From Lachnospiraceae bacterium (GTDB lineage Bacteria; Bacillota; Clostridia; Lachnospirales; Lachnospiraceae), in contig JAFUPV010000009.1 of NCBI GenBank assembly GCA_017472605.1, positions 41,953-105,952 on the forward strand: DNA of 64,000 bases. The letters run 5' to 3'. The position numbers and the translations under genes are program-made. Positions 7,777 to 44,587 of this stretch are shown here, piece after piece. The stretch's first letter is position 1. Each line of letters opens with the position of its first letter. A model generated the notes under the pieces. It had not been told where the DNA came from, searched no databases, and saw only the letters and a list, made by a program, of their open reading frames with translations.

Positions 7777-8910
7777 CTATCGATGATGAATCGGTGTCGT
7801 CGATTCCGTAATCGGTAGAATCTCATATCCTCTTGCTTTCAGCTGCTCAATGATATACGGCAGTTCTTCCATCGTTCTCGCTTTGTCATCCGCGTCATGC
7901 ATCAGAACAACAAGCGTATCGCCTTTGTTCATGACAGAATTCGGTCCATCCAGAACATTATAGGCAATCCGACCGGAAGGAAGAGGCGGACTTGCCGCAT
8001 CCCCGGATGATACATTCCAGTCATAATACACAAATCCGTTGGCATTCAGCCAGTCAATGCACTGATTCACCGTCAGATCATATTTAAACATCTGATTGCT
8101 GCTTCCTCCCGGAAACCGGTACAGCGTTGGCGTGAAACCGGTAACTGAGCGGACATATTCCTGAATGCCGCGCACATCCTGCGCAAACGCATCCAGATTT
8201 GCATAGATTGACGCATAGTCATGGCTGACGGAATGAATTCCAAGACTATGTCCCTCCGCCAGTATCTGGCGATACTTTTCTGCATATTCTTCTCCGCCAT
8301 GATGGGTGACAAAGAACGTTGCTTTCACATCATACCGCCGTAAAATATCCAGCAATTCATAGGTATACTTCGATGGTCCGTCATCAAAGGTAAGATACAC
8401 CTTCTTACCGATCCCTTCGGAAGAATTTACAGTCGGTTGAACTGGCGTTTCTGCCGCTGACACGGATGTGTCTGGTTCCATGGGTTCTCCCCCGGCGGTA
8501 TTTTCCCCGGCTGCGTCTCCTCCGGCCGCTTCTTCCCCGGCTGCGTCTCCTCCGGCCGCTTCCGCCCCGGCTGCGTCTTCCCCGACTGCTTCTCCTCCGG
8601 CTGTTTCTTCTCCGGCTACTTCTCGCCCGGCTGCTTCTCCTCCGGTCGCTTCGCGCTCCGACAATTCCGCCGTTTCCTCCATTGATTTTTCCTGGCTCTC
8701 AGTCCGTCCTTCTTCCTGACTCTGCAGCTGTCTGAGTTCCTTCGTGACTGTGACAACTCTGCACGACTGCACAATGCTGACAACCAGTAACGCGAGAATC
8801 AGAATCACACAAACCACAAATTGCTTTTTCCAGAAATCCAGAATCCGCTTTTTTTCCATCTGCAGTTTTCGATTTGCTTTTTGCAGTCTTTTCAATTCAT
8901 CCTGTTCCAT
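7777..8910 (-). CDS. Membrane-anchored polysaccharide deacetylase (NodB domain) with a repetitive Ala/Gly/Glu linker
   Basis: A 377-residue protein: basic N-terminal coil, one membrane helix (about 29-49), a low-complexity linker (about 80-150) made of some eleven five-residue units of the A-A-G-x-E type, then a NodB domain. Catalytic motifs are present: TFDDGPS (about 173), HSVSHDY with the two metal His (about 225), RFPGGSSN, and the C-terminal VVLMHDAD. Such enzymes remove N-acetyl groups from peptidoglycan or other cell-wall amino sugars outside the cell, often conferring lysozyme resistance. The ATG follows AGGAAG with 7-base spacing. The acidic linker presumably spans the wall; its length is likely to vary between strains. 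Confidence 0.9.
   Translation of the reverse strand: MEQDELKRLQKANRKLQMEKKRILDFWKKQFVVCVILILALLVVSIVQSCRVVTVTKELRQLQSQEEGRTESQEKSMEETAELSEREATGGEAAGREVAGEETAGGEAVGEDAAGAEAAGGDAAGEEAAGGDAAGENTAGGEPMEPDTSVSAAETPVQPTVNSSEGIGKKVYLTFDDGPSKYTYELLDILRRYDVKATFFVTHHGGEEYAEKYRQILAEGHSLGIHSVSHDYASIYANLDAFAQDVRGIQEYVRSVTGFTPTLYRFPGGSSNQMFKYDLTVNQCIDWLNANGFVYYDWNVSSGDAASPPLPSGRIAYNVLDGPNSVMNKGDTLVVLMHDADDKARTMEELPYIIEQLKARGYEILPITESTTPIHHR
8486..8660. repeat. 15-nt tandem repeats coding for the deacetylase linker
   Basis: About eleven GC-rich 15-base units (GCCGGAGGAGA-like on the minus strand) with point differences, all in frame. Each unit encodes five residues of the acidic linker. Confidence 0.75.
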
Positions 8911-10365: not shown

Positions 10366-11598
10366 TTAGTTATTTTCCTTATCGCGCTTGCGGTTCAGAT
10401 AAATATCCAGCTTTTCCTTCATCTTTTCCGGAATCTCTCTTGCAACCGGACAATTCTTTGCATTTACCATCCGCTCCACAAAGACATTGATAAAGTCAAC
10501 ATCCTTCTGCAGCTGACTCGCTTTCATTACGTTCAGCGTGTCATAGCTGTTGTGAATGGTCGCTGTATTGTTTGGAGCCATGCGGGCAAAGGACAGTGCA
10601 GGCACTCCCTTATCGGCAAACGGCGTCGAATCACTGGAATAAACACCATCCCTGGCAGCCATTCCAAATCCAAGCTCACTGGCCAGATACTGAATGTAGT
10701 GAACCAGCTTCTCCTCCGTTGTGCAGCATGCAAGGAACTTGCCCATGATGCAGCCGATCATGTCCAGATTTACATTGAGCACAATCTTCTTCAGTTCTTC
10801 CTCGTGGGCCGCACAGTATGCCTTGGAACCAAGCAGACCGCGCTCCTCCGAGCCGCACCAGATGAAACGCAGACCGTAGTGGTGCGGTTTATTCATGAAA
10901 TGCTCCGCAATCGCCAAAATACCAATGCTTCCGGACATATTATCATAAGCACCAGTAGACAGAGACGTGGTATCATAGTGCGCCGTCAGAGCGATGTATT
11001 CGTCAATTTCTCCGGGAAGATCAAGAATCACATTATGGGATTCTCCTTTATACTCCTGCTGTTTCAGCACAATCCTGGCCGTCTTTGCGTCATTGCGGAT
11101 GATTTCAATGGCATCCTTTGCATTGATGTTCACACCCGGAACCTTCCTTCCGTTGCTGACAAAGGAGCGGAGCTCCCGCTGATCGATGTCGCGGTCCGCA
11201 TAGTTGGCATTGCCGTCATAGGTGATGAAACCGACTGCGCCGTTATCCAGAAGATCCTGATAAAGCCAGTAGCGGATGTAGCCGTCAATCATCACAATCT
11301 TTCCTCTGCACTGCTTCAGGGAACAGGGATCTGTGTTGGGCAGATAGCAAAGCTCCGCCTCCACATCTCCGCTTCCGGCATTAAAATACCCCTTACAGGG
11401 AATCTCCCTGCCATCAATCAGAAGCTTTGCCTCCTCAATCGTCGCCATGTCCACTTCAAAGGCTTCCAGTTTCGCCTCCAGGCCAAGCTCAGCGCATCTG
11501 CTCTGCAAATACTCGGCACACGTTAATTCCTCACTGCTTCCGCCGGTGTGAACGTAGGCAGTGTCCAGTAAAATCTGATTTATCTTTTGTAAGTCCAT
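10366..11598 (-). CDS. M28 family zinc aminopeptidase with PA domain
   Basis: A 410-residue peptidase. The di-zinc ligands of the M28 family are visible: ALTAHYDTTS (His, with Asp), GAYDNMSGSIG (bridging Asp), WCGSEERGLLG (Glu-Glu) , VNLDMIG (Asp) and NTATIHNSYDT (His). Residues about 60-200 form a protease-associated insert. No signal peptide is seen. The ATG at 11598 follows AGGAGGAAAGCAA. The frame stays open a further 75 codons upstream only because it runs through three 81/82-nt repeats with no stop; that extension is not credible as protein. Confidence 0.88.
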   Translation of the reverse strand: MDLQKINQILLDTAYVHTGGSSEELTCAEYLQSRCAELGLEAKLEAFEVDMATIEEAKLLIDGREIPCKGYFNAGSGDVEAELCYLPNTDPCSLKQCRGKIVMIDGYIRYWLYQDLLDNGAVGFITYDGNANYADRDIDQRELRSFVSNGRKVPGVNINAKDAIEIIRNDAKTARIVLKQQEYKGESHNVILDLPGEIDEYIALTAHYDTTSLSTGAYDNMSGSIGILAIAEHFMNKPHHYGLRFIWCGSEERGLLGSKAYCAAHEEELKKIVLNVNLDMIGCIMGKFLACCTTEEKLVHYIQYLASELGFGMAARDGVYSSDSTPFADKGVPALSFARMAPNNTATIHNSYDTLNVMKASQLQKDVDFINVFVERMVNAKNCPVAREIPEKMKEKLDIYLNRKRDKENN

Positions 11599-11854
11599 TT
11601 GCTTTCCTCCTGTAGTATTGCCCCCCTCACCTGCGTTCGGCGGCGGTACGGAGGAAAGCATTATAAGAAATGCTTCGCATTTGCTTTCCTCCCATAGAAT
11701 TGCCCCCTCACCTTCGTTCGGCGGCGGTACGGAGGAAAGCATTACAGAAAATGCTTCGCATTTGCTTTCCTCCCATAGAATTGCCCCCTCACCTGCGTTC
11801 GGCGGCGGTACGGAGGAAAGCATTACAGAAAATGCTTCGCATTTGCTTTCCTCC
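11596..11854. repeat. Three tandem 81/82-nt units between murI and the M28 gene
   Basis: Units 11601-11682, 11683-11763 and 11764-11844, with a fourth partial boundary at 11845-11854. On the minus strand each contains GGAGGAAAGCAAATG, which copies the ribosome site and start context of the M28 gene, and a nested palindrome: arms GGAGGAAAGCA/TGCTTTCCTCC around an inner AAATGC/GCATTT hairpin. Units 2 and 3 differ at a single base. The last codons of murI (KANAKHFL) are encoded by the first transcribed unit. Confidence 0.9.
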
Positions 11855-23665: not shown

Positions 23666-26224
23666 TTACGGAAGCAGAGAAATGAATGCAATTGCCGGCT
23701 GTGTCGGACTGAAATCAATCGGATCATACACAATGCCGTAGGTGGCATTCTTTGCATGAACGATCATTCCATTTCCAATATATACGGCTACATGTCCATA
23801 GTAATAGATCAGGTCGCCCGCGCGAAGCTGATCACGGGAAATCTGTGTACCTGCCCAGCGCTGATCACCGGAAGAACGGGGCAGACTGACGCCAACGGTT
23901 GCGAATACAGCCTTTGTAAAGGCAGAGCAGTCAACGCCGCCTCCTACCGCCAGATTGTTTCCGCCATAGACGTAGTTACACTTACCAACCCACTGCTGAG
24001 CAAAGTTTACAACCTGCTGACGCGCTGCACTGATGCCTGGTTCGGAAGGAGCCGGAGTTGTCGGCGGCTCGGTCGGTGCCGGTGTGGTTGGTGCAGGGGT
24101 TGTCGGTGCAGGAGTCGTCGGCGCAGGGGTTGTTTCCGGCGGTGCGGTTTCCACAGGAAGAATATTCAGCGGGAAGGAAGACTGATGACCGTTATAGGTC
24201 ATAGTCACAACAAACTCTCCTGCTGTCAGATTCATTCCAACCTGTGCGCAGCTCCATGCTGCCGGATCGGTAATGTTCGTTTCCGTTCCATCACTGTACC
24301 AGACATGAACATAGAGTTCACTTGCGGAGATTACCTGTCCTTCATATTTCTGGCCGCCATTATAGCGTGCCTCAATCTTTACAATCGAAACCACGTTTTC
24401 GGAAGACGGCTGGGACGGCTCAGTCGGAGCCGGAGTCGTTTCCGGTACCGGCGTGGTCGGGGTCGGAGTCGTTTCCGGTGCCGGTGTGGTCGGGGTCGGA
24501 GTCGTTTCCGGTGCCGGTGTGGTCGGAGTCGGAGTCGTTTCCGCCGGATCGGTCGGTGCCGGGGTCGTTTCTGCCGGAGCAGACGGTGCCTGCTGTGCCG
24601 GAAGAACCGTCAGCGGGAACGCAGAACGCAGCTCACCATAGTACATCGTTACAATCCGCTCGCCTTCTGCCAGGATCATTCCCACATCCGGGGAAGTCCA
24701 CTGGGACGGATCCGTGATGGTTCCTTCTGTTCCATCGCTGTACCAGACACGAAGATACAGTTCCGCGGAATAGATAACCTCTCCCGCATATTTCTGACCG
24801 CCGCTGTAGCATGCTTCAATCTTGACAACTTCCTTATTGACCGGAGCTGTCTCTGACGGAACAGCAGGTTCCGTGGACGGCGCGGTAGACGGACTTGTCG
24901 GGTCTGTGGACGGCGCTGACGGTGCCGTGGACGGACTTGCCGGGTCTGTGGACGGTGCGGACGGCGCCGTGGACGGACTTGTCGGGTCTGTGGACGGTGC
25001 TGTCGGGTCTGTGGACGGACTTGTCGGTTCCGCGGACGGTGCGGACGGTGCCGTAGACGGACTCGTCGGATCTGCAGACGGTACCGGCGCAGTAGACGGA
25101 CTTGTCGGGTCTGTGGACGGTGCCGTAGACGGAGTTACCGGCGGTTCTGTCACATTGTTCTTCGCCTCTTCCTCAATTTCGGCAATGATCTTTGCAACGG
25201 CATCACTTAACGCCTGCGCATCGTCACGCTGTTTCTGCGCTGCCGCAACCAGATCAGTCATTCCTGCATAGGTCGCAGTTTCTATGTACGCATTCCACAT
25301 CTCAACACAATAGTCAATGGCATATTTTGCACCGACATAGTCGTGTACGGATCTGCGCTCATCATAGATTCGTTTTGCGTCATCGGTTTCGATGATATAG
25401 CCTTCCAGCTTCTGTTTGATGAATTCATCGTCAATTGCAACCGCTTCCGCAAACTTTGTCTCGATCCGGACACTGTCGCGGCGGACATAGCCCCAGAGAG
25501 TGTCGCTGACTTTGATCATGACATAGTCGCCGGAGTACTGCATAACCGGATAAACGGAATCTTTGTAAACGTAGTCCAGAACCTTTCCAGCAGAGGCTGC
25601 CGTATCGTAAAGTTCCAGAGCATCTGCGAGAATCGTCGCATACTTATTCTGAACATTTGTCTCTGCGGTATCCGCTTCCGCTCCGGTCAGTACATATTCC
25701 GCACTGACATAGCCTTCAATTCCGTTGGTACGGATCAGATACCAGGTTCCGCTGTCGTTTGTGATTGTTTCAAAAATTTCAACCTTGCAGCTGTTGTACA
25801 GATATGCAACAACAGGCGCCGTTAAGGATGGGGATTTTCTCATGAAGAGACGGTTTGTCGTGCTGACAATACCGGAATCTCCGGCAGCTCCTTCCTCAAC
25901 CAGGTCATCGGCTCTTGCCGTTCCCTGAACCTGTCCCTTCTCCGTCTGTACATCCGCTTTTACCGCGGCTGCACTGGTCGGTTCCGTTTCAGCCGGAGCT
26001 GCTACAACCGGCCGCAGATACTCCAGAATATCCGCCTCCGGGGAATTGCTGTTCGCATAGTAATTATTTAAAGATACCGCCATTCCGGCGACTGCCGTGT
26101 CATTTTCCAAAGTTGTCGCAAGTGTTGAAACCGGATTTCCTACACTGGTAAGCACCATTGCTGCTGCCGCACAGGAAGAAATGAACTTGTAAAGAAGCTT
26201 CTTTTTCATAAGTTTCTTATGCAT
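23666..26224 (-). CDS. Secreted NlpC/P60 peptidoglycan hydrolase with SH3 and Ig-like domains
   Basis: An 852-residue exported protein. Order: signal peptide (1-38; MHKKLMKKKLLYKF then hydrophobic), bacterial SH3 domain (about 115-175) and a second SH3-like stretch (about 185-245), helical segment (about 255-340), Pro/Ser/Thr/Asp repeat linker (about 350-460), two homologous Ig-like repeats (each with a VWYSDGTE core) separated by Pro/Thr linkers, and a C-terminal NlpC/P60 domain (about 735-852) with catalytic Cys in GGGVDCSAF (about 765) and His in GHVAVYIG (about 808). It probably cleaves stem peptides during wall turnover. The start at 26224 follows GGGAGG; a perfect promoter lies upstream. 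Confidence 0.9.
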   Translation of the reverse strand: MHKKLMKKKLLYKFISSCAAAAMVLTSVGNPVSTLATTLENDTAVAGMAVSLNNYYANSNSPEADILEYLRPVVAAPAETEPTSAAAVKADVQTEKGQVQGTARADDLVEEGAAGDSGIVSTTNRLFMRKSPSLTAPVVAYLYNSCKVEIFETITNDSGTWYLIRTNGIEGYVSAEYVLTGAEADTAETNVQNKYATILADALELYDTAASAGKVLDYVYKDSVYPVMQYSGDYVMIKVSDTLWGYVRRDSVRIETKFAEAVAIDDEFIKQKLEGYIIETDDAKRIYDERRSVHDYVGAKYAIDYCVEMWNAYIETATYAGMTDLVAAAQKQRDDAQALSDAVAKIIAEIEEEAKNNVTEPPVTPSTAPSTDPTSPSTAPVPSADPTSPSTAPSAPSAEPTSPSTDPTAPSTDPTSPSTAPSAPSTDPASPSTAPSAPSTDPTSPSTAPSTEPAVPSETAPVNKEVVKIEACYSGGQKYAGEVIYSAELYLRVWYSDGTEGTITDPSQWTSPDVGMILAEGERIVTMYYGELRSAFPLTVLPAQQAPSAPAETTPAPTDPAETTPTPTTPAPETTPTPTTPAPETTPTPTTPVPETTPAPTEPSQPSSENVVSIVKIEARYNGGQKYEGQVISASELYVHVWYSDGTETNITDPAAWSCAQVGMNLTAGEFVVTMTYNGHQSSFPLNILPVETAPPETTPAPTTPAPTTPAPTTPAPTEPPTTPAPSEPGISAARQQVVNFAQQWVGKCNYVYGGNNLAVGGGVDCSAFTKAVFATVGVSLPRSSGDQRWAGTQISRDQLRAGDLIYYYGHVAVYIGNGMIVHAKNATYGIVYDPIDFSPTQPAIAFISLLP
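24862..25135. repeat. Pro/Ser/Thr-coding tandem repeats in the NlpC/P60 gene
   Basis: Degenerate tandem units of about 21-33 bases built from GGTCTGTGGACGG and GACTTGTCGG cores (plus strand), encoding PSTDPTSPSTAPS-type units on the minus strand. A second Pro/Thr stretch codes TPTPTTPAPET units near 24430-24560 and a third lies near 24060-24140. Confidence 0.85.
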
Positions 26225-37380: not shown

Positions 37381-40077
37381 CTACTTTCCTTTTTCATCCT
37401 TATTCAGTACTTTTTTTCCCAGCCGCACATCCTCCAGCATATCTGCCAGCTCATCCGATACATTCTGGAACAGATAGCTTCGCATGCTCTGCTGTTTTGT
37501 CAGATAATCTTTGCGGATTTCCTGGTTGGTCGCCATGATATCCTCTTTCAGACCCTGCGCCGACATGCGCAGAGCTCCCTGACCCATGATGATCAGCTGC
37601 TCAATGCCATCGGAGGTCGCAACTGTCACGCGGTGCCTGCGTTCAATCTGAAGAACCGTTTTCTCAATATACTGGTCGGCCGTCTCCGCTTCTTTTGTAT
37701 ATACCACATAGATGTTGTGGTATTTCTGCACCTCACCCTGATATCCTTCCACCTTATAGGCATCAAACACCAGAATCAGGACATTTCCGCGATATCCCTG
37801 ATAGTTGCTGAGAATGTCCATCAGCGCCAGCCGGGCTGCCGCCAGATCCACCTTTGCCAGTTCGCTCAGTTCTTCCCAGGCAAAAATGATGTTGTATCCG
37901 TCTACAAGCAGGTATTCCGTTGTCTTCTCCGTCTCCGCTGTTTCCCTGCTTTTTGACGAAGAAGACGGGCGAAAGGCATCTCTTGTTCTGCGGGCAGCTC
38001 CATAGGTTCGGGTGAAAATCTCTTCCAGTTCCTTATCTGCTTCCAGCGAAGTCACCAGAGAGCCTCCCGACCGGGCCGGTTTGCCTGCGGACGAACCCAT
38101 GCCGAAAACACCGGGAGCGGATGTCGCCTGCAGAGGCACTGCCGACTGCTGCCATGCAAAGTCCAGATGCATGTAATTGACAACTTCCTCCCAGTTTACA
38201 TTGAAGCCTGCTCCGTGAGCGCAGAAAACAGAGCCGGTTGGATTGTTCAGATCCCGCTCGGAATCGTAACCGGCTTCTGCAATCACCGCTTCTGCATTGT
38301 GGCAGGGCTCATAACCTTTCAGACTGCAGAAAAGGCGGCCTTCTCCGCGGCTGTAGGCAACTACTTCCCGCTGATAATCCCGCATATTGACAACAGGCGC
38401 GCTTCCTGTGATTACTGCCATCTCCCCTTCCGTGACCGGTTGGGAAAAGCTTGCCTGCATTTTCTGCAGATCATTCAGCGCTCTTCCTACCGCATCCTGA
38501 GGAATTTCCAGCGAAAATTCGTAGACTGGTTCCAGCAGAAGGCTTTTTGTCCGCTTCAGTCCGTGACGGACCGCACGATAGGTTGCCTGACGGAAATCGC
38601 CGCCCTCGGTATGCTTCTGGTGGGCACGGCCGGTCAGCAGAGTAATCCGGATATCTGTGATCTCCGCTCCGATCAGAACGCCACGGTGCTTTTTCTCTTC
38701 CAGATGGGTCAGGATCAGCCGCTGCCAGTTCTTATCCAGAACGTCCTCACTGCATTTTGCGGCAAAGGTTACGCCGCTGCCCCGCTCCCCCGGTTCCAGC
38801 AGCAGATGAACCTCCGCGTAGTGACGAAGCGGCTCAAAGTGACCGACTCCCTCAATCGCTTCCGCAATGGTTTCTTTATAGACAATGGTTCCGGAACCAA
38901 ATTCCACATCCACACCGTACCGCTCTTTGATCATGCTTTTCAGAATCTCCATCTGAACGGCTCCCATGACCTGCGCATGGATTTCTCCGGATTCTTCTTC
39001 CCAGACGATGTGAAGCTGCGGTTCCTCTTCTTCCAGCGCACAGAGACGTTCATACATCCGATGCATGTCACAGCCATAGGGCAGCTGGATCCGATACGTG
39101 AGAACCGGTTCCAGAACAGGCCGGTTCGCATCCTTCTCCACACCCAGTCCCTGACCGACAAAGGTCTTTCCCGGACCGGCTACCGCACAGATGCTTCCGG
39201 CTGCCAGTTCCTTTTCCAGGCGAAACTGACTTCCTGAATACAGACGCAGCTGATCTGCTTTTTCGCCGCCTTCTTCCAGCTGCTGCTTCACCTTCAGAAC
39301 ACCGCCGGTCACTTTCAGATGGGTCAGACGGTTTCCCTGGGCATCGCGGCTGATTTTGTAGACTTTTGCGCCGAACGTATCCGGATATTCCGGACAGGCG
39401 GTAAACCGCTCCACACCGCGCAGGAATTCATCCACACCGGTCATTTTCAGCGCGGAGCCGAAGTAGCAGGGAAAGACCTGACGGCGGCGGATCAGTCCGC
39501 GGATTTCCTCATCCGTCATCTCTCCCGTCTCCAGATACCGCTCCATCAGCTGTTCGTCACAGACAGCCAGATTCTCATAAAATGCTTCGTCCTCGCCGCC
39601 TTCCCGAAACTCGATGCAGCGCTCATCCAGCCGCCTTGTCAGTTCTCCCATCAGCAGTTCTCTGTCTGTGCCGATCTGGTCCATTTTATTAATGAAGAGA
39701 AAAACAGGGATCTGATATCGCTTCAGCAGCTTCCACAGCGTCAGCACATGACCCTGCACCCCGTCCATGCCGCTGATCACAAGGATGGCATAGTCCAGCA
39801 CCTGGAGCGTCCGCTCCATTTCCGCTGAAAAATCCACATGTCCCGGGGTATCCAGAAGCGTGACCTGTTTTGTACCCAGAGAAAACAGCGCCTGCTTGGA
39901 AAAAATGGTAATTCCTCTCGCCCGCTCCAGCTCATAGGTATCCAGGAACGCGTTTCTGTGATCCACCCGCCCCAGTTTACGGATGCTTCCCGTGCGATAC
40001 AGAATCCCCTCTGCCAGCGTTGTTTTGCCCGCGTCTACATGGGCAAGAATACCGATTACTAACTTATTGCTCTCCAT
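37381..40077 (-). CDS. TetM/EF-G-like translational GTPase fused to a YacP/Rae1-type NYN nuclease domain
   Basis: An 898-residue fusion. Residues about 1-650 follow the TetM/EF-G layout: G1 AHVDAGKTT (12-20), switch I RGIT (about 54), G3 DTPGH (77-81), G4 NKMD (131-134), then domains II-V. A low-complexity linker (about 660-715, SSSSKSRETAETEKT) joins a NYN domain (721 to about 880): EYLLVDGYNIIF, LVFDAYKVEG, EAETADQYIE and TVATSDG hold the expected acidic residues of YacP. In Bacillus the free YacP protein Rae1 cleaves mRNA in the ribosomal A site, the place TetM and EF-G also bind. A ribosome-directed nuclease is therefore an attractive inference. The gene starts three bases after the glyoxalase stop. 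Tetracycline resistance cannot be assumed. Confidence 0.85.
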   Translation of the reverse strand: MESNKLVIGILAHVDAGKTTLAEGILYRTGSIRKLGRVDHRNAFLDTYELERARGITIFSKQALFSLGTKQVTLLDTPGHVDFSAEMERTLQVLDYAILVISGMDGVQGHVLTLWKLLKRYQIPVFLFINKMDQIGTDRELLMGELTRRLDERCIEFREGGEDEAFYENLAVCDEQLMERYLETGEMTDEEIRGLIRRRQVFPCYFGSALKMTGVDEFLRGVERFTACPEYPDTFGAKVYKISRDAQGNRLTHLKVTGGVLKVKQQLEEGGEKADQLRLYSGSQFRLEKELAAGSICAVAGPGKTFVGQGLGVEKDANRPVLEPVLTYRIQLPYGCDMHRMYERLCALEEEEPQLHIVWEEESGEIHAQVMGAVQMEILKSMIKERYGVDVEFGSGTIVYKETIAEAIEGVGHFEPLRHYAEVHLLLEPGERGSGVTFAAKCSEDVLDKNWQRLILTHLEEKKHRGVLIGAEITDIRITLLTGRAHQKHTEGGDFRQATYRAVRHGLKRTKSLLLEPVYEFSLEIPQDAVGRALNDLQKMQASFSQPVTEGEMAVITGSAPVVNMRDYQREVVAYSRGEGRLFCSLKGYEPCHNAEAVIAEAGYDSERDLNNPTGSVFCAHGAGFNVNWEEVVNYMHLDFAWQQSAVPLQATSAPGVFGMGSSAGKPARSGGSLVTSLEADKELEEIFTRTYGAARRTRDAFRPSSSSKSRETAETEKTTEYLLVDGYNIIFAWEELSELAKVDLAAARLALMDILSNYQGYRGNVLILVFDAYKVEGYQGEVQKYHNIYVVYTKEAETADQYIEKTVLQIERRHRVTVATSDGIEQLIIMGQGALRMSAQGLKEDIMATNQEIRKDYLTKQQSMRSYLFQNVSDELADMLEDVRLGKKVLNKDEKGK

Positions 40078-40080
40078 CGC

Positions 40081-40452
40081 TTACTTTTTCGCCGGTACAA
40101 TTTCCAGCCAGTATCCATCCGGATCCTGAATGAAATAGATTCCCATGGACGGATTCTCAAAACAGATGCATCCCATGGCCGCATGCTTTGCATGAGCCGC
40201 CTCATAGTCCTCCGTCTCAAACGCAAGATGGAACTCGCAGTCACCCAGGTTATAGGGACGGTCAAAATCACGAAGCCATGTCAGTTCCAGCTCGAAGCCG
40301 GTCTCCTCATTGCCGACATAGACGATGATGAAAGACTCATCTCCTGCCACCTTCCGGCGGATTTCCGTCAGTCCCAGTGCCTCTCTGTAGAAATCCAGGG
40401 ATTTCTGCAGATCTTTTACATTATAATTCTCATGGATCATTTTAAACTTCAT
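40081..40452 (-). CDS. Glyoxalase I-like VOC metalloprotein
   Basis: A 123-residue vicinal-oxygen-chelate protein with paired beta-alpha-beta-beta-beta units. Metal ligands expected for glyoxalase I are visible: His in MIHENYNV (7), Glu in FELELT (about 55), His in EFHLAFE (about 75) and Glu in YWLEIVP (about 118). Lactoylglutathione lyase is the closest class, although glutathione is unusual in clostridia and another thiol or substrate may be used. Its ATG overlaps the TGA of metH by four bases. Confidence 0.82.
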   Translation of the reverse strand: MKFKMIHENYNVKDLQKSLDFYREALGLTEIRRKVAGDESFIIVYVGNEETGFELELTWLRDFDRPYNLGDCEFHLAFETEDYEAAHAKHAAMGCICFENPSMGIYFIQDPDGYWLEIVPAKK

Positions 40453-43061
40453 TTGATTCCCTCCAGATTCGCAAACAATTCTTCCGCATAGCGCACCGTC
40501 GCCATCGCATCCTTTCCATAGCAGTCCGCGCCGATTTCCTTTGCATAGGACTCGGTCAGCACTGCACCGCCAACCACGGTTTTTACATGGGGCAGCTGTT
40601 CATGAAGGAGACGGATGGTTTCCTCCATGCTTACTACTGTCGTTGTCATCAGCGCACTCAGTCCCACCAGCGGCGCGCCTGTCTCTCTCGCTTTATCAAC
40701 AATTGCCTGAGGATCCACATCCTTTCCCAGATCATAGACCTCATAACCATAATTATCAAGGAGTACCCTGACAATGTTTTTTCCAATATCATGAATATCG
40801 CCCTTTACCGTTGCAAGAACGATTTTCCCCTTTTTCTCCTGCTTTGTACCGCTTGCCTGCAGAAATCTTCCAATCTCATCAAAGGCACACTTTGCAGCCT
40901 CCGCACTCATCAGCAGCTGGGGAAGAAATACCGTCCCCTTCTCAAATCCCTGACCCACCAGATCCAGCGCAGGAACAAGACGCGTATTGATGATTTCCAA
41001 CGGTTCCATCTCTTTGAGCAGCATTGCCGTCACCTGTGCGGACGGTTCCCTGAGGCCCTTTCGAATCGTCTGGATCAGGTCCGGCACCGGTTCACCGGAT
41101 TTTCCGGACGCACCGCTGCCATTTCCGCTCAGATCACCGCTTTCTCCGCCCTGACCGCTTCCGTGTCTCAGACCGGCGGCATTCCCACTTTGACCGCTTC
41201 CGGTTCCCAGACCGGCGGTTTTCGCGCTCTGACCGTTTCCGGTTCCCGAACCGGCAGCTTTCCCACTCTGACCGTTTCCGGTTCCCGAACCGACGGCTTT
41301 CGCACCCGCAGCGTCGCTTTTTTCCTGCACAGCAGCCGCATAACGCTCAATATATTCGCCGCACTGAGGATCCAGTGCCGCCAGCGCGCAGTACGCGAAG
41401 TAGGCTTTCATCATGCTCTCCGAAGCCGGGTTGATGATTGCCGCGCTGAGTCCGTTCTGCATCGCCATGGTATAAAACGCCGAATTGATGATTTCACGCT
41501 GGGGCAGACCAAAGGAAATGTTGGAAACACCGAGAATGGAATGGCCATCCAGCTCATCCCGGATTCTGCGTAACGTCTCCAGCGTCACGAGAGCCGACTC
41601 CGGTTCGGAACTGATTGTCATCGCCAGGGCATCCAGAACAATGTCTTCTTTCCGGATTCCATAGTCCGCCGCTGTCTCATAGATCCGTTTTGCGATGGCG
41701 ATCCGTCCATCCGCCGTCTGAGGAATTCCGTTCTCGTCCAGAAGCAGGGCAACCACAACGCCTCCATATTTCTTCACCAGCGGGAACACGGTTTCCATGC
41801 TTTCCCTTTTGCCGTTGACGGAATTGATCATTGCCTTTCCGTTATAGACGCGAAGAGCCCGCTCCATGGCTGCCGGGTCAGAAGTATCAATCTGCAGCGG
41901 CAGACGGATGCATGCCTGAAGCTCCTGTACTGCTTCCTCCAGCAATGCCGGTTCATCGATCCCCGGAAGCCCCACATTAACATCAAGAATATGAGCCCCC
42001 TTCTCCTCCTGCCTGATGCCTTCTCCCACAATGTAGTCCAGATCATGGGCAAGAAGTGCCTCTTTAAACCGCTTCTTTCCAGTGGGGTTGATCCGCTCTC
42101 CGATGATCACAGGCCTTTTTCCAATCTCAACGGCCGTTCCATAGGAAGAAACAATCGTCTGTTTCTTTGGCAGGATCGGCTTTGGCGCAATCTCGTCACA
42201 AATCTGTTTTGTCAAACGGATATGCCGGGGCGTTGTTCCGCAGCAGCCGCCTATCATCCAGGCCCCATCCTTCGCAATTTCACCCATGATGGATGCAAAT
42301 TCCTCCGGTGTCACATCATAGACCGTTTTTCCCTGTTCCGTTCTGGGCAGTCCCGCATTGGGATTGACAATCACCGGCACCGATGCATGTTGGAGGATCT
42401 CCCTGGCAACGGCCCGCATCTGCTCCGGTCCCATGCCGCAATTCACTCCAAGACCGTCCACACCGAGACCTTCCATGGACGCAACAACTGCCTTCGGAGA
42501 CGTTCCGGTCAGCAGCTTCTTTTTCTCATCATAGACCATCGTAACAAAAACGGGAAGACTGGTCTGCTCCTTCGCTGCCAGTACTGCCGCCTTCGCTTCA
42601 TAGGCATCGCTCATCGTCTCGATCAGAATCAGATCTGCGCCGCATTCGCTGCCGATTTTCATGATCTCCGCATAAACAGAAACCGCATCTTCAAATGCCA
42701 GGTCTCCCAAAGGCTTCAGCAGTTTTCCCGTCGGTCCCACATCGAGAGCGATGCAGGCGTCCTCCCGTCCACTTCTGCGTCTTGCTTCTTTCGCATTTTC
42801 AAATGCCGCCTCGATTACGGCTCGCAGGGAGTGTTCCCCCTCCTTCGGAAATTTCAGTCCGTTGGCACCAAACGTGTTGGCATTGATGATATCGGCTCCT
42901 GCTTCCAGATAAGCCTGATTGATGGCAATAATCTCTTCCCGATGGGTAAGGTTCCAAATCTCGGGCAGTTCTCCGCCCTTCAATCCCCGCTCCTGCAAAA
43001 GCGAACCCATTCCTCCGTCCCAGTACAGAATTCTTTTCCCCAGCTGCTCCAAACAATTCAT
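40449..43061 (-). CDS. metH: Cobalamin-dependent methionine synthase, no reactivation domain
   Basis: An 870-residue MetH: homocysteine-binding zinc domain (1-300; GVNCGMGP about 207, GGCCGTTP about 271), pterin domain (about 315-590; GERINPTGKK about 322), a repeat-rich linker (about 595-680), B12 cap (about 690-760) and B12-binding Rossmann domain with GDIHDIGKN (about 755). The fourth, AdoMet-dependent reactivation domain of Escherichia MetH is missing, as in many clostridia where it is a separate protein. The linker insert is made of 13-residue Gly/Ser/Gln repeats. AGAAGG precedes the ATG. A half-length paralogue lies just upstream. Confidence 0.93.
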   Translation of the reverse strand: MNCLEQLGKRILYWDGGMGSLLQERGLKGGELPEIWNLTHREEIIAINQAYLEAGADIINANTFGANGLKFPKEGEHSLRAVIEAAFENAKEARRRSGREDACIALDVGPTGKLLKPLGDLAFEDAVSVYAEIMKIGSECGADLILIETMSDAYEAKAAVLAAKEQTSLPVFVTMVYDEKKKLLTGTSPKAVVASMEGLGVDGLGVNCGMGPEQMRAVAREILQHASVPVIVNPNAGLPRTEQGKTVYDVTPEEFASIMGEIAKDGAWMIGGCCGTTPRHIRLTKQICDEIAPKPILPKKQTIVSSYGTAVEIGKRPVIIGERINPTGKKRFKEALLAHDLDYIVGEGIRQEEKGAHILDVNVGLPGIDEPALLEEAVQELQACIRLPLQIDTSDPAAMERALRVYNGKAMINSVNGKRESMETVFPLVKKYGGVVVALLLDENGIPQTADGRIAIAKRIYETAADYGIRKEDIVLDALAMTISSEPESALVTLETLRRIRDELDGHSILGVSNISFGLPQREIINSAFYTMAMQNGLSAAIINPASESMMKAYFAYCALAALDPQCGEYIERYAAAVQEKSDAAGAKAVGSGTGNGQSGKAAGSGTGNGQSAKTAGLGTGSGQSGNAAGLRHGSGQGGESGDLSGNGSGASGKSGEPVPDLIQTIRKGLREPSAQVTAMLLKEMEPLEIINTRLVPALDLVGQGFEKGTVFLPQLLMSAEAAKCAFDEIGRFLQASGTKQEKKGKIVLATVKGDIHDIGKNIVRVLLDNYGYEVYDLGKDVDPQAIVDKARETGAPLVGLSALMTTTVVSMEETIRLLHEQLPHVKTVVGGAVLTESYAKEIGADCYGKDAMATVRYAEELFANLEGIK
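41152..41307. repeat. Four 39-nt tandem units in the metH linker
   Basis: Units 41152-41190, 41191-41229, 41230-41268 and 41269-41307, sharing TGACCG...TTCC(C)..ACCGGCGG cores. Each encodes 13 residues of the type SGTGNGQSGKAAG on the minus strand. They lie between pterin and cobalamin domains. Confidence 0.9.
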
Positions 43062-43099: not shown

Positions 43100-44587
43100 T
43101 CATCTGCAAAGCGTTTCCAGAACAGCAAAAACAGACTCATCTTCCTCCGGCTGCATGTCATATACAAGATTTTCCATTGCGATTCCGCTCTGTTTTGCCG
43201 CCTGACAGATTTTCTTCGCGATCACAGTCCGTTCTTCTTCGTTCTTCACTACTCCGTTTTCATCCGCAAGTTCAGCCACAACAACGGCACCATATTTCTT
43301 CGCCAGCGGGAAGATCTGATCCATGCGTTCCTGCATTCCATTCACTGCGTGGATCATTGCCTTTCCATTGTAAATCCGAAGCGCCTGATCCAGTGCCTTT
43401 GGATTCTCCGTGCAAATCTGCAGCGGTGTTTTCATGTAGGTCTGCAGCTCCAGGATGGTTTCCGGAAGCAATGTTTCCTCGTCCGCTTCCGGCATGGCAA
43501 CACATACACGGATTACATCCGCGCCGTCGTCTTCCATCTCCGTCGCTTCATCCAGAATGGAATCAAAATCTTCATCCAGCAGCGCCTCTTTCACATCCTC
43601 ACTGACAGCCGGGTCAATCTGCGTTCCTACCGCAACCGGCTCGCCGCAAAGCGTTACCGCCATTCCATGGGTGGAAATGACCGTTTTTTTCTTCGGCTGA
43701 ATCGGCAATGGATTCACCCTGTCACATGCCTGCTTTGTCAGACGGATATGCTCCGGTGTCGTGCCGCAGCAGCCGCCCACGATCCAGGCGCCATCCTTCG
43801 CAATCTCACTCATGATTTCCGCGAACGCTTCCGGTGTCACATCATAGACATTTTTTCCGTTTTCTCTTCGTGGAAGTCCCGCATTGGGATTCACGATTAC
43901 CGGCACGGAGGCGTTTTCCAGAAGCTCCTTTGCCACTTCTCTCATCTGAGCCGGTCCCATGCCGCAGTTGACGCCAAGCGCAGTCACGCCAAGACCTTCC
44001 ATGGTGGAGACAACAGCCTCCGGTGAAGTTCCGGTCAGAAGCTTTTTGCTTTCGTTATAAACCATGGTCACAAAAACAGGAAGGTCGGTCTGCTCCTTCG
44101 CCGCAACAACTGCCGCCTTTGCTTCATAGGCGTCACTCATGGTCTCGATTAAAACAAGATCGGCGCCGCATTCCTTTCCGATCTGCATGATCTCGGCAAA
44201 AATCGCTACCGCGTCCTCAAAAGCCAGATCTCCAAGCGGCTCCAACAGCTTTCCGGTGGGCCCCACATCAAGAGCCACACAGGCATCCTCCCGACCGCTT
44301 CTTTTCTTTGCTTCCCTGGCATTTTCAAAAGCAGCTTCGATTACGCTTCGCAGTGTATGCTCCTTTCCCTGCGGATACTTGATCCGGTTTGCGCCAAAGG
44401 TGTTTGCATTGATGATGTCCGCGCCGGCCTCCAGATAGGCCTGATGAATGGCAATCACATCCTCCCTGTGAGTGACGTTCCAGATTTCCGGCAGCTCACC
44501 GCCCTTTAATCCACGTTCCTGCAGCAGGGAACCCATGCCGCCGTCCCAATATAAAATCCGTTTTCCCAGTTGTTCCAGACAGTTCAT
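43100..44587 (-). CDS. Half-length methionine synthase paralogue: homocysteine methyltransferase domain plus decayed pterin domain
   Basis: A 495-residue protein. Residues 1-300 are nearly identical to the neighbouring MetH (the first 37 residues differ at one or two positions) and keep the zinc cysteines (GVNCGMGP, GGCCGTTP). Residues about 315-495 align to the MetH pterin domain but have lost key blocks: GERINPTGKK is replaced by GTQIDPAVSE and DVNVG by RVCVA, the region is acid-rich, and the protein stops where MetH continues. It may methylate homocysteine from another donor or have a regulatory role. It is the first gene of the operon; GGAG precedes the ATG, promoter at 44645-44674. Confidence 0.85.
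   Translation of the reverse strand: MNCLEQLGKRILYWDGGMGSLLQERGLKGGELPEIWNVTHREDVIAIHQAYLEAGADIINANTFGANRIKYPQGKEHTLRSVIEAAFENAREAKKRSGREDACVALDVGPTGKLLEPLGDLAFEDAVAIFAEIMQIGKECGADLVLIETMSDAYEAKAAVVAAKEQTDLPVFVTMVYNESKKLLTGTSPEAVVSTMEGLGVTALGVNCGMGPAQMREVAKELLENASVPVIVNPNAGLPRRENGKNVYDVTPEAFAEIMSEIAKDGAWIVGGCCGTTPEHIRLTKQACDRVNPLPIQPKKKTVISTHGMAVTLCGEPVAVGTQIDPAVSEDVKEALLDEDFDSILDEATEMEDDGADVIRVCVAMPEADEETLLPETILELQTYMKTPLQICTENPKALDQALRIYNGKAMIHAVNGMQERMDQIFPLAKKYGAVVVAELADENGVVKNEEERTVIAKKICQAAKQSGIAMENLVYDMQPEEDESVFAVLETLCR

Follow-up and report, generated by a model that had tools for sequence, protein, structure and literature searches.

A Clostridial EF-G/Tet-Type GTPase Fused to a Rae1-Type NYN Nuclease Probably Serves as the Rae1 of Its Host

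Rae1 (YacP) is described as an endoribonuclease of the ribosomal A site, and an efp mutant is suppressed when either Rae1 or the rlmB homologue next to it is lost (PMC6613710); the Bacillus subtilis enzyme is reported to act on mRNA in a translation-dependent manner. A review (PMC8161019) describes Tet-type factors as overlapping the A site and clearing tetracycline, with GTP hydrolysis apparently used for release. Closest to the present case, Atkinson 2015 noted that Tet proteins of ten clostridial species carry a YacP-like NYN domain, with RNase ability among the things to test (PMC4342817). We analyzed a gene of this described architecture, a Tet-type GTPase with a C-terminal YacP-like NYN domain in Clostridiales, that lies in a 64,000-nucleotide stretch of Lachnospiraceae DNA (the window, meaning the whole stretch). 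The architecture is already known, and the evidence on its role is new here. The accessible text of Atkinson 2015 suggests a resistance role and holds no rae1 replacement, relics or tip analysis of the fusions (PMC4342817), and no report of rae1 replacement, relics or a tested fusion function was seen in searches of an open-licence library, which lacks most subscription papers, the main Rae1 papers among them. The best explanation is that the fusion is probably the host's Rae1, carried by a translational GTPase.

The fusion is encoded by a single uninterrupted frame of 898 amino acids that starts with ATG and fills exactly positions 37381–40077 of the minus strand; the plus strand over the same interval is broken by stops. 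The original prediction had placed a GTPase–nuclease fusion at this position without giving the strand, and the open reading frame (ORF), Pfam and Protein Data Bank profiles confirmed the fusion. The Pfam matches GTP_EFTU, EFG_III, EFG_IV, EFG_C and NYN_YacP each exceed their own curated cut-offs, including the three (GTP_EFTU, EFG_IV and NYN_YacP) for which a domain search had been proposed. The NYN_YacP (PF05991) match to residues 723–885 has an E value of 6.8e-51 and scores 173 bits against a gathering score of 24.6. The EF-G-like order G-II-III-IV-V is present, with domain II below the Pfam cut-off, and the G domain contains the motifs AHVDAGKTT, RGIT, DTPGH, NKMD and GSAL. In the structure profile search, the N-terminal part matched TetO (E 9.7e-113) and TetM best and then EF-G, over profile positions 3–592, and the NYN part matched only the YacP/Rae1 structures 5mq8 and 5mq9 (E 2e-26). 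A chance or artefactual assembly join was ruled out by the identical order of parts in 127 of 393 genomes of the class; the same order was found in all 80 best-scoring named loci, a best-first and hence biased list. The sequence shows that the predicted product pairs a complete GTPase of EF-G/Tet type, from a distinct clade, with a NYN domain of Rae1 type, the two being connected by a conserved module and a long linker that varies.

We compared the NYN half with B. subtilis-type Rae1/YacP (5mq8, 5mq9). Both match NYN_YacP, and D7, D53, E76, D81, E85 and D104 of Rae1 (numbering counted by hand) align with the acids of the fusion. Rae1 is free-standing and has about 170 amino acids, whereas the fused NYN is a C-terminal domain away from rlmB-sigH; the fusion therefore lacks the feature of a free-standing small protein in the rlmB-rae1-sigH neighbourhood. 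The fusion is the sole NYN_YacP match in the window's genome (95% complete), with no second one found there and none in the cysE-cysS-mrnC-rlmB stretch of that genome. The names rlmB, sigH, mrnC, cysS and cysE are presumptive ones that we gave from the gene order of B. subtilis and the look of the sequences, not from a family scan.

We determined how the two forms are distributed in an even draw of 393 genomes of the class, requested at a completeness of at least 90% (G, L and f numbers are our handles for genomes, loci and families). A match to NYN_YacP at E ≤ 1e-3 was counted as a fusion in a frame of at least 800 amino acids and as a stand-alone in a frame of at most 230. Matches were present in 250 genomes (127 fusion, 112 stand-alone and 11 other, the last at contig edges, in broken frames or odd) and absent at this threshold in 143, which indicates that Rae1 is dispensable in many Clostridia. 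The 11 genomes outside both counts are G237, G046, G064, G192, G174, G158, G297, G187, G073, G288 and G263; four of these resemble broken fusions as listed, G237 and G046 with a pair of overlapping ORFs that differ in frame, G064 and G192 with a frame that is interrupted. Only one genome, G286, was seen to hold both forms intact, against about 36 expected under independence (127 × 112 / 393), a contrast that kinship inflates. In G286 (L057 and L061) the stand-alone rae1 sits in the usual place, and this genome is possibly a transition state. In three genomes of family f26 (G122, G176 and G210), frames of 163–165 amino acids give a second NYN-like match, which scores 21 bits, below the Pfam cut-off, and was not counted as Rae1.

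Fusions occur under 25 family labels of the sample and stand-alones under 33, with both under 5. The window's family has the fusion in 19 of 20 sampled genomes, so the gene resembles a housekeeping gene. Each of the five genomes of family f22 has exactly one form (1 fused, 4 alone). In family f49, a full fusion frame is present in 11 of 12 genomes and a frame truncated close to the end of a contig in the twelfth (G158), and an intact rae1 persists in one of the 12; the ten genomes of family f21 comprise 4 full fusions, 2 cut frames, 2 stand-alones and 2 with neither. The named relatives are the 80 best-scoring among 586 stretches encoding some relative; by their titles these 80 are Clostridia, largely Lachnospiraceae, with Oscillospiraceae, Clostridiaceae, Desulfosporosinus and others.

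To locate the resident gene, we used its neighbours. Of 20 stand-alone loci fetched, 17 have rae1 between rlmB and sigH. The rlmB-sigH gap measures 533–757 nucleotides (nt) in 16 of the 17, while that of L025 is 3642 nt and holds another gene; in the remaining three, L023, L027 and L040, no rlmB or sigH was recognised in the stretch. Among 80 fusion genomes searched, rlmB was found in 80 and sigH, at E ≤ 1e-35, in 72, and the two are neighbours (<800 nt) in 26. By the summary tally, 24 of the 26 gaps are 19–582 nt; those of G286 and G372 are 726 nt (intact rae1) and 728 nt (relic), respectively. Remains of rae1 were sought in 26 regions, namely 25 of the neighbour genomes (G286 excluded) and G396, found later. 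Inside the gap, remains were detected at E ≤ 1e-3 in 8 of the 26 regions (G372, G024, G346, G077, G099, G118, G138 and G396; families f84, f26, f49 and f21), and none was detected outside the gap at that threshold in the 26 regions. A control with 430 shuffled queries gave 0 matches at 1e-3 and 4 at 0.05 (best 0.011); two matches, in the gap of G176 (0.024) and off-site in G020 (0.046), are at chance level. For all eight relics the best match is a stand-alone rae1 (L057 for five, L031 for two and L035 for one) and never a fused NYN. The G372 relic has a stop and an internal loss and lies between intact rlmB and sigH; in G373, of the window's family, the rlmB-sigH spacing is about 50 nt. Relics in place are a stronger argument for replacement than the mutual exclusion, and the predicted replacement of stand-alone rae1 by the fusion is well supported. 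The fused NYN seems to have replaced the Rae1 of the cell and not to be a stray nuclease.

Conservation was examined in an alignment of 75 fusions (A2), comprising 74 of the 80 named loci and the window protein; L131 (1065 amino acids) was left out for its length and L086, L104, L106, L113 and L117 by choice. The residues checked in the P-loop, switch I (Thr 57), DTPGH and NKMD are invariant in 75 of 75 sequences, and the Ser of GSAL is kept in 71. The NYN acids D726, D772, D801, E805 and D823 are likewise invariant, and E796 is present in 73 of 75. The catalytic ones among the listed acids are presumed. The expectations that the GTPase motifs are intact and that an alignment would reveal no loss of the catalytic acids hold to this extent, that is, apart from four sequences at the GSAL Ser and two at E796. 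The ratio of nonsynonymous to synonymous substitution rates (dN/dS) was 0.06–0.08 for the GTPase part in six pairs of related fusions and 0.05–0.09 for the NYN part in five of the six, the sixth not being computable; dS exceeds 1 in several pairs, for which these values are rough. The low dN/dS of both parts indicates that both halves of the fusion are under purifying selection and are therefore maintained.

In the GTPase tree, a branch with a support of 100/100, present in all 200 bootstrap trees, separates the 22 fused GTPases from the 14 unfused ones; the tree has no root, and two of its outgroup rows are very long. The paralogues L059 and L060 from the window's own genome carry a provisional EFG label, and L059 groups with the Tet-like L058. 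In the NYN tree, the fused domains, together with the stand-alones L023, L026 and L027 from the window's order or family, separate from 18 other stand-alones with a support of 95/99. L026 (G142) retains the rlmB-sigH position and is likely a state before fusion. L023 (G211, of the window's family) is a free NYN that branches within the fused ones (97/88) and lies outside the usual neighbourhood; the related GTPase of G211, L052, belongs to another branch, and L023 is probably the product of fission with loss of the original GTPase. The fusion has reached families whose own rae1 decays, which suggests horizontal transfer. Full-length relatives of the fusion are present on two large plasmids, of Agathobacter rectalis and Monoglobus pectinilyticus (NZ_CP143948.1 and NZ_OY725736.1), and in two unannotated faecal records labelled as phage (MT835563.1 and MT835514.1). 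Viral contigs gave 4 loci with 25–30% identity, none of which covers the NYN domain.

The same trees bear on the strongest of the alternatives, in which two independent housekeeping enzymes were joined for convenience, the NYN being an ordinary Rae1, the GTPase having an unrelated task and the linker acting as a mere tether. The linker is long and variable (67–140 amino acids), the NYN is free again in G211, and unfused clade GTPases exist. We hand-picked 25 genomes that have a close unfused GTPase (E < 1e-140; frames visible for at least 19) and no fusion: a separate NYN_YacP is present in 19 of them, 12 of which belong to family f37, and the other 6, which speak for this alternative, lack any NYN. 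On the other side, 0 of the 14 unfused GTPases nest among the 22 fused ones, and both partners come from ribosome-factor families. The short linker motif (E683 in 73, I687 in 72 and T691 in 70 of 75 fusions) is possibly a docking or ribosome-binding element, and its retention, with fused frames under 25 family labels, suggests a selected connection. We regard a joining for convenience as unlikely.

We next consider the GTPase half, from which a second alternative, the reading of Atkinson 2015, takes its support: a Tet ribosomal protection protein with an RNase added as an extra resistance mechanism, a role suggested in that article. TetO and TetM are the best structural profile relatives, and the NCBIfam Tet model tet_protect is the top NCBIfam match of the window protein. 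RefSeq gives some members resistance names; fused and unfused clade members are labelled 'TetM/TetW/TetO/TetS family' in plasmid records, as had been anticipated. Yet the window protein scores 423.2 bits against the tet_protect cut-off of 775 and 284.8 against 659.4 for the EF-G equivalog TIGR00484, and six more clade proteins (1 fused, 5 unfused) score 393–468 bits on the Tet model, all below the cut-off. Missing the Tet cut-off does not decide the matter, because the test is a strict one: L058, a Tet-like protein from outside the clade used for comparison, also falls short, at 486 bits. Identity of the GTPase part is about 28–29% to the Tet(M) and Tet(O) records among the matches listed and 32.8%, over residues 8–590, to TetB(P), the closest named tet gene among those matches. 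Tet(M)/Tet(O) share the five-domain EF-G-like GTPase, aligned over the profile positions given above, and differ in that the fusion has an extra module after domain V and a nuclease tail; the TetB(P) match ends short of residues 596–640 and includes no nuclease.

The tip of domain IV separates the fusion further from Tet proteins. It reads G-R-A-H-Q-K-H-T-E-G-G-D-F-R in the window protein, and all 75 aligned fusions keep H486, K488, H489, T490 and D494. In our reading of the printed profile alignment, K488 aligns with Pro-509 of TetM/TetO and H486 with the EF-G tip His; the tip-loop proline is thus absent, with Lys at the aligned position in 75 of 75 fusions. Pro-509 of TetM sits in the drug site, according to the review cited above (PMC8161019). 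Because of these two alignments, the predicted tip is neither TetM-type nor EF-G-type. The presence of the fusion in 19 of 20 genomes of the window's family is also unlike a sporadically acquired resistance gene. A resistance protein with an added RNase is accordingly rather improbable, and the original emphasis on antibiotic-bound ribosomes is weakened, although the fusion may confer low intrinsic tetracycline resistance.

The unfused GTPases of the clade share the H-x-K-H-T tip motif and the module after domain V with the fusion (14 of 14 examined) and differ in that NYN is absent; their frames have 645–671 amino acids among the matches listed. The module at residues 596–640 is common to fused and unfused members. 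A zinc-binding module made of Cys and His in residues 592–637 was considered and dropped because H593 and H637 vary. Ligilactobacillus salivarius megaplasmids (NC_007930.1 and others) carry unfused clade members with about 47–49% identity to the window protein; these are named Tet proteins, with one record reading 'translation factor GTPase family protein'.

In regards to the mechanism of the proposed GTPase-borne Rae1, the GTPase very probably binds ribosomes, and the NYN nuclease is likely to be active and to serve as the cell's Rae1. The A-site cleavage by Rae1 and the A-site clearing by Tet-type factors lead us to infer a cycle of probing and cutting. The GTP form of the GTPase would bind paused or stalled ribosomes with an empty A site, and the tip of domain IV (H486-x-K488-H489-T490) would probe or clear the decoding site. 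GTP hydrolysis would pull domain IV out; the tethered NYN would then occupy the freed A site and cut the mRNA there, as proposed for B. subtilis Rae1, and the truncated complex would enter the normal rescue pathway. Affinity for the ribosome and timing would come from the GTPase, whereas free Rae1 would depend on diffusion. If domain IV enters the decoding site as it does in EF-G and TetM, it and a Rae1 docked there would compete for the same space, so delivery would have to be sequential or on another ribosome; alternatively, the NYN may cut on a neighbouring collided ribosome. Its reach is unlikely to be limiting, given a linker of 67–140 residues. We hold GTP-timed sequential delivery on the same ribosome only tentatively. 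The fullest version of this proposal is more doubtful still: GTP hydrolysis would time the entry of a tethered Rae1 at paused ribosomes, and the fusion would have arisen once, from rae1 joined onto a Tet-like GTPase, spread across many clostridial families and displaced the resident rae1; in many gut bacteria it would now be the main mRNA-cutting factor of ribosome rescue, wrongly named after resistance. That the NYN instead cuts rRNA or tRNA, so that the protein inactivates or matures ribosomes, is very improbable: Atkinson 2015 cites a proposal of rRNA/tRNA maturation by YacP-like NYNs (PMC4342817) and the GTPase would bring the NYN to rRNA, but B. subtilis Rae1, the only solved relative found, is reported to act on mRNA in a translation-dependent manner, and the fused NYN has the same acids as Rae1 and takes the place of rae1.

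Several points weigh against a GTPase-borne Rae1 that replaced the resident gene. Rae1 can be lost outright, so that loss of rae1 alone is no proof of replacement, and the two f21 genomes in which no NYN_YacP was found are such cases; kinship inflates the exclusion count. Remains were not detected at E ≤ 1e-3 in 18 of the 26 regions, including G193 with its gap of 594 nt, and nothing is readable in the 54 of 80 fusion genomes where rlmB and sigH are not neighbours. In G386, outside the 26, the two genes lie about 2 kb apart on one contig and no rae1 match was seen there. G211 apparently indicates that the NYN can do without the GTPase of the fusion, and the clash of domain IV and NYN over one A site leaves delivery on the same ribosome a proposal.

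The naturally occurring fusion to a GTPase of EF-G/Tet type suggests a testable explanation of how Rae1 finds paused ribosomes. In yeast, Ski7/Hbs1 provide a GTPase-fold factor that links stalled ribosomes to RNA decay, the nuclease being the separate exosome; we compare only how the two would work, claim no sequence kinship, and note that the nuclease there is separate. The unfused clade GTPases, found with a separate Rae1 in 19 of 25 genomes, suggest a possible partner in trans. The occurrence of the fusion in 19 of 20 genomes of the window's family and in named relatives that are largely Lachnospiraceae implies that it may influence how mRNA decays in abundant gut bacteria. The fusion is also a warning for resistome surveys: clade members bear Tet names, and the window protein and six scored relatives, other than those named plasmid proteins, miss the NCBI Tet cut-off.

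Table 1. Positions of the fusion gene, its parts and the adjoining gene in the window.
Feature	Position	Strand	Basis and remarks
Whole fusion gene, 898 amino acids	37381..40077	-	ORF list, translation and Pfam architecture
GTPase (G) domain, residues 6-224	39406..40062	-	GTP_EFTU (Pfam), E 8.4e-48
Domain II, residues 237-309	39151..39369	-	EF-G_D2, sub-threshold Pfam match (15 bits vs 27); position fits TetM/EF-G alignment
Domain III, residues 323-394	38896..39111	-	EFG_III (Pfam)
Domain IV, residues 397-510	38548..38889	-	EFG_IV (Pfam); highest conservation of all parts, mean 0.84
Domain IV tip loop, residues 483-499	38581..38631	-	Invariant H486, K488, H489, T490; alignments
Domain V, residues 514-595	38293..38538	-	EFG_C (Pfam)
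Module following domain V, residues 596-640	38158..38292	-	Core GYDSERDLNNPTGSVFCAHGAGFNVNWEEVVNYMH; alignments; mean conservation 0.69
Linker, residues 641-721	37915..38157	-	Variable in sequence and length, 67-140 amino acids in 75 aligned fusions
Short conserved linker motif, residues 681-692	38002..38037	-	DKELEEIFTRTY, ELxxIFxRTYG-like; 75-fusion alignment
NYN/PIN nuclease domain, YacP/Rae1 type, residues 723-885	37423..37911	-	NYN_YacP (Pfam), 5mq8/5mq9
Glyoxalase/VOC gene	40081..40452	-	PF00903; ends 3 bases upstream of the fusion

The VOC gene overlaps the gene for a cobalamin-type methionine synthase (metH), and metH, VOC and the fusion possibly form a common transcript. Scanning for promoters and terminators gave matches to consensus only, and no conclusion is drawn from them. 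Clustering of flanking ORFs gave few shared neighbours of the fusion, and these among close relatives only (a 311-amino-acid gene in L005, L006 and L011, and two genes in L015 and L016); the metH-VOC order of the window lies outside that clustering. A mobile or resistance-island setting was rejected, the scanned neighbours in the window being ordinary metabolic or transport genes, yet plasmid and phage-labelled records hold relatives. No tRNA or tmRNA gene was found within the window.

Other features of the window are as follows. A 39-nt tandem repeat of 4.3 copies (41139–41305) in the methionine synthase gene encodes a Gly/Ser-rich insert between the pterin-binding and B12-binding parts. Directly upstream, positions 43100–44587 of the minus strand hold a second, shorter methionine-synthase-like gene with a near-identical N-terminus, in which the Pfam scan found no B12 domains; it is perhaps a reduced tandem paralogue. 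Dense tandem repeats with units of 15–45 nt occur at 24072–25123 and 8485–8660, and the stretch at 24–26 kb is the only 2-kb bin with a positive GC skew. An 81-nt direct repeat of 3.2 copies with a 94% match lies at 11596–11854.

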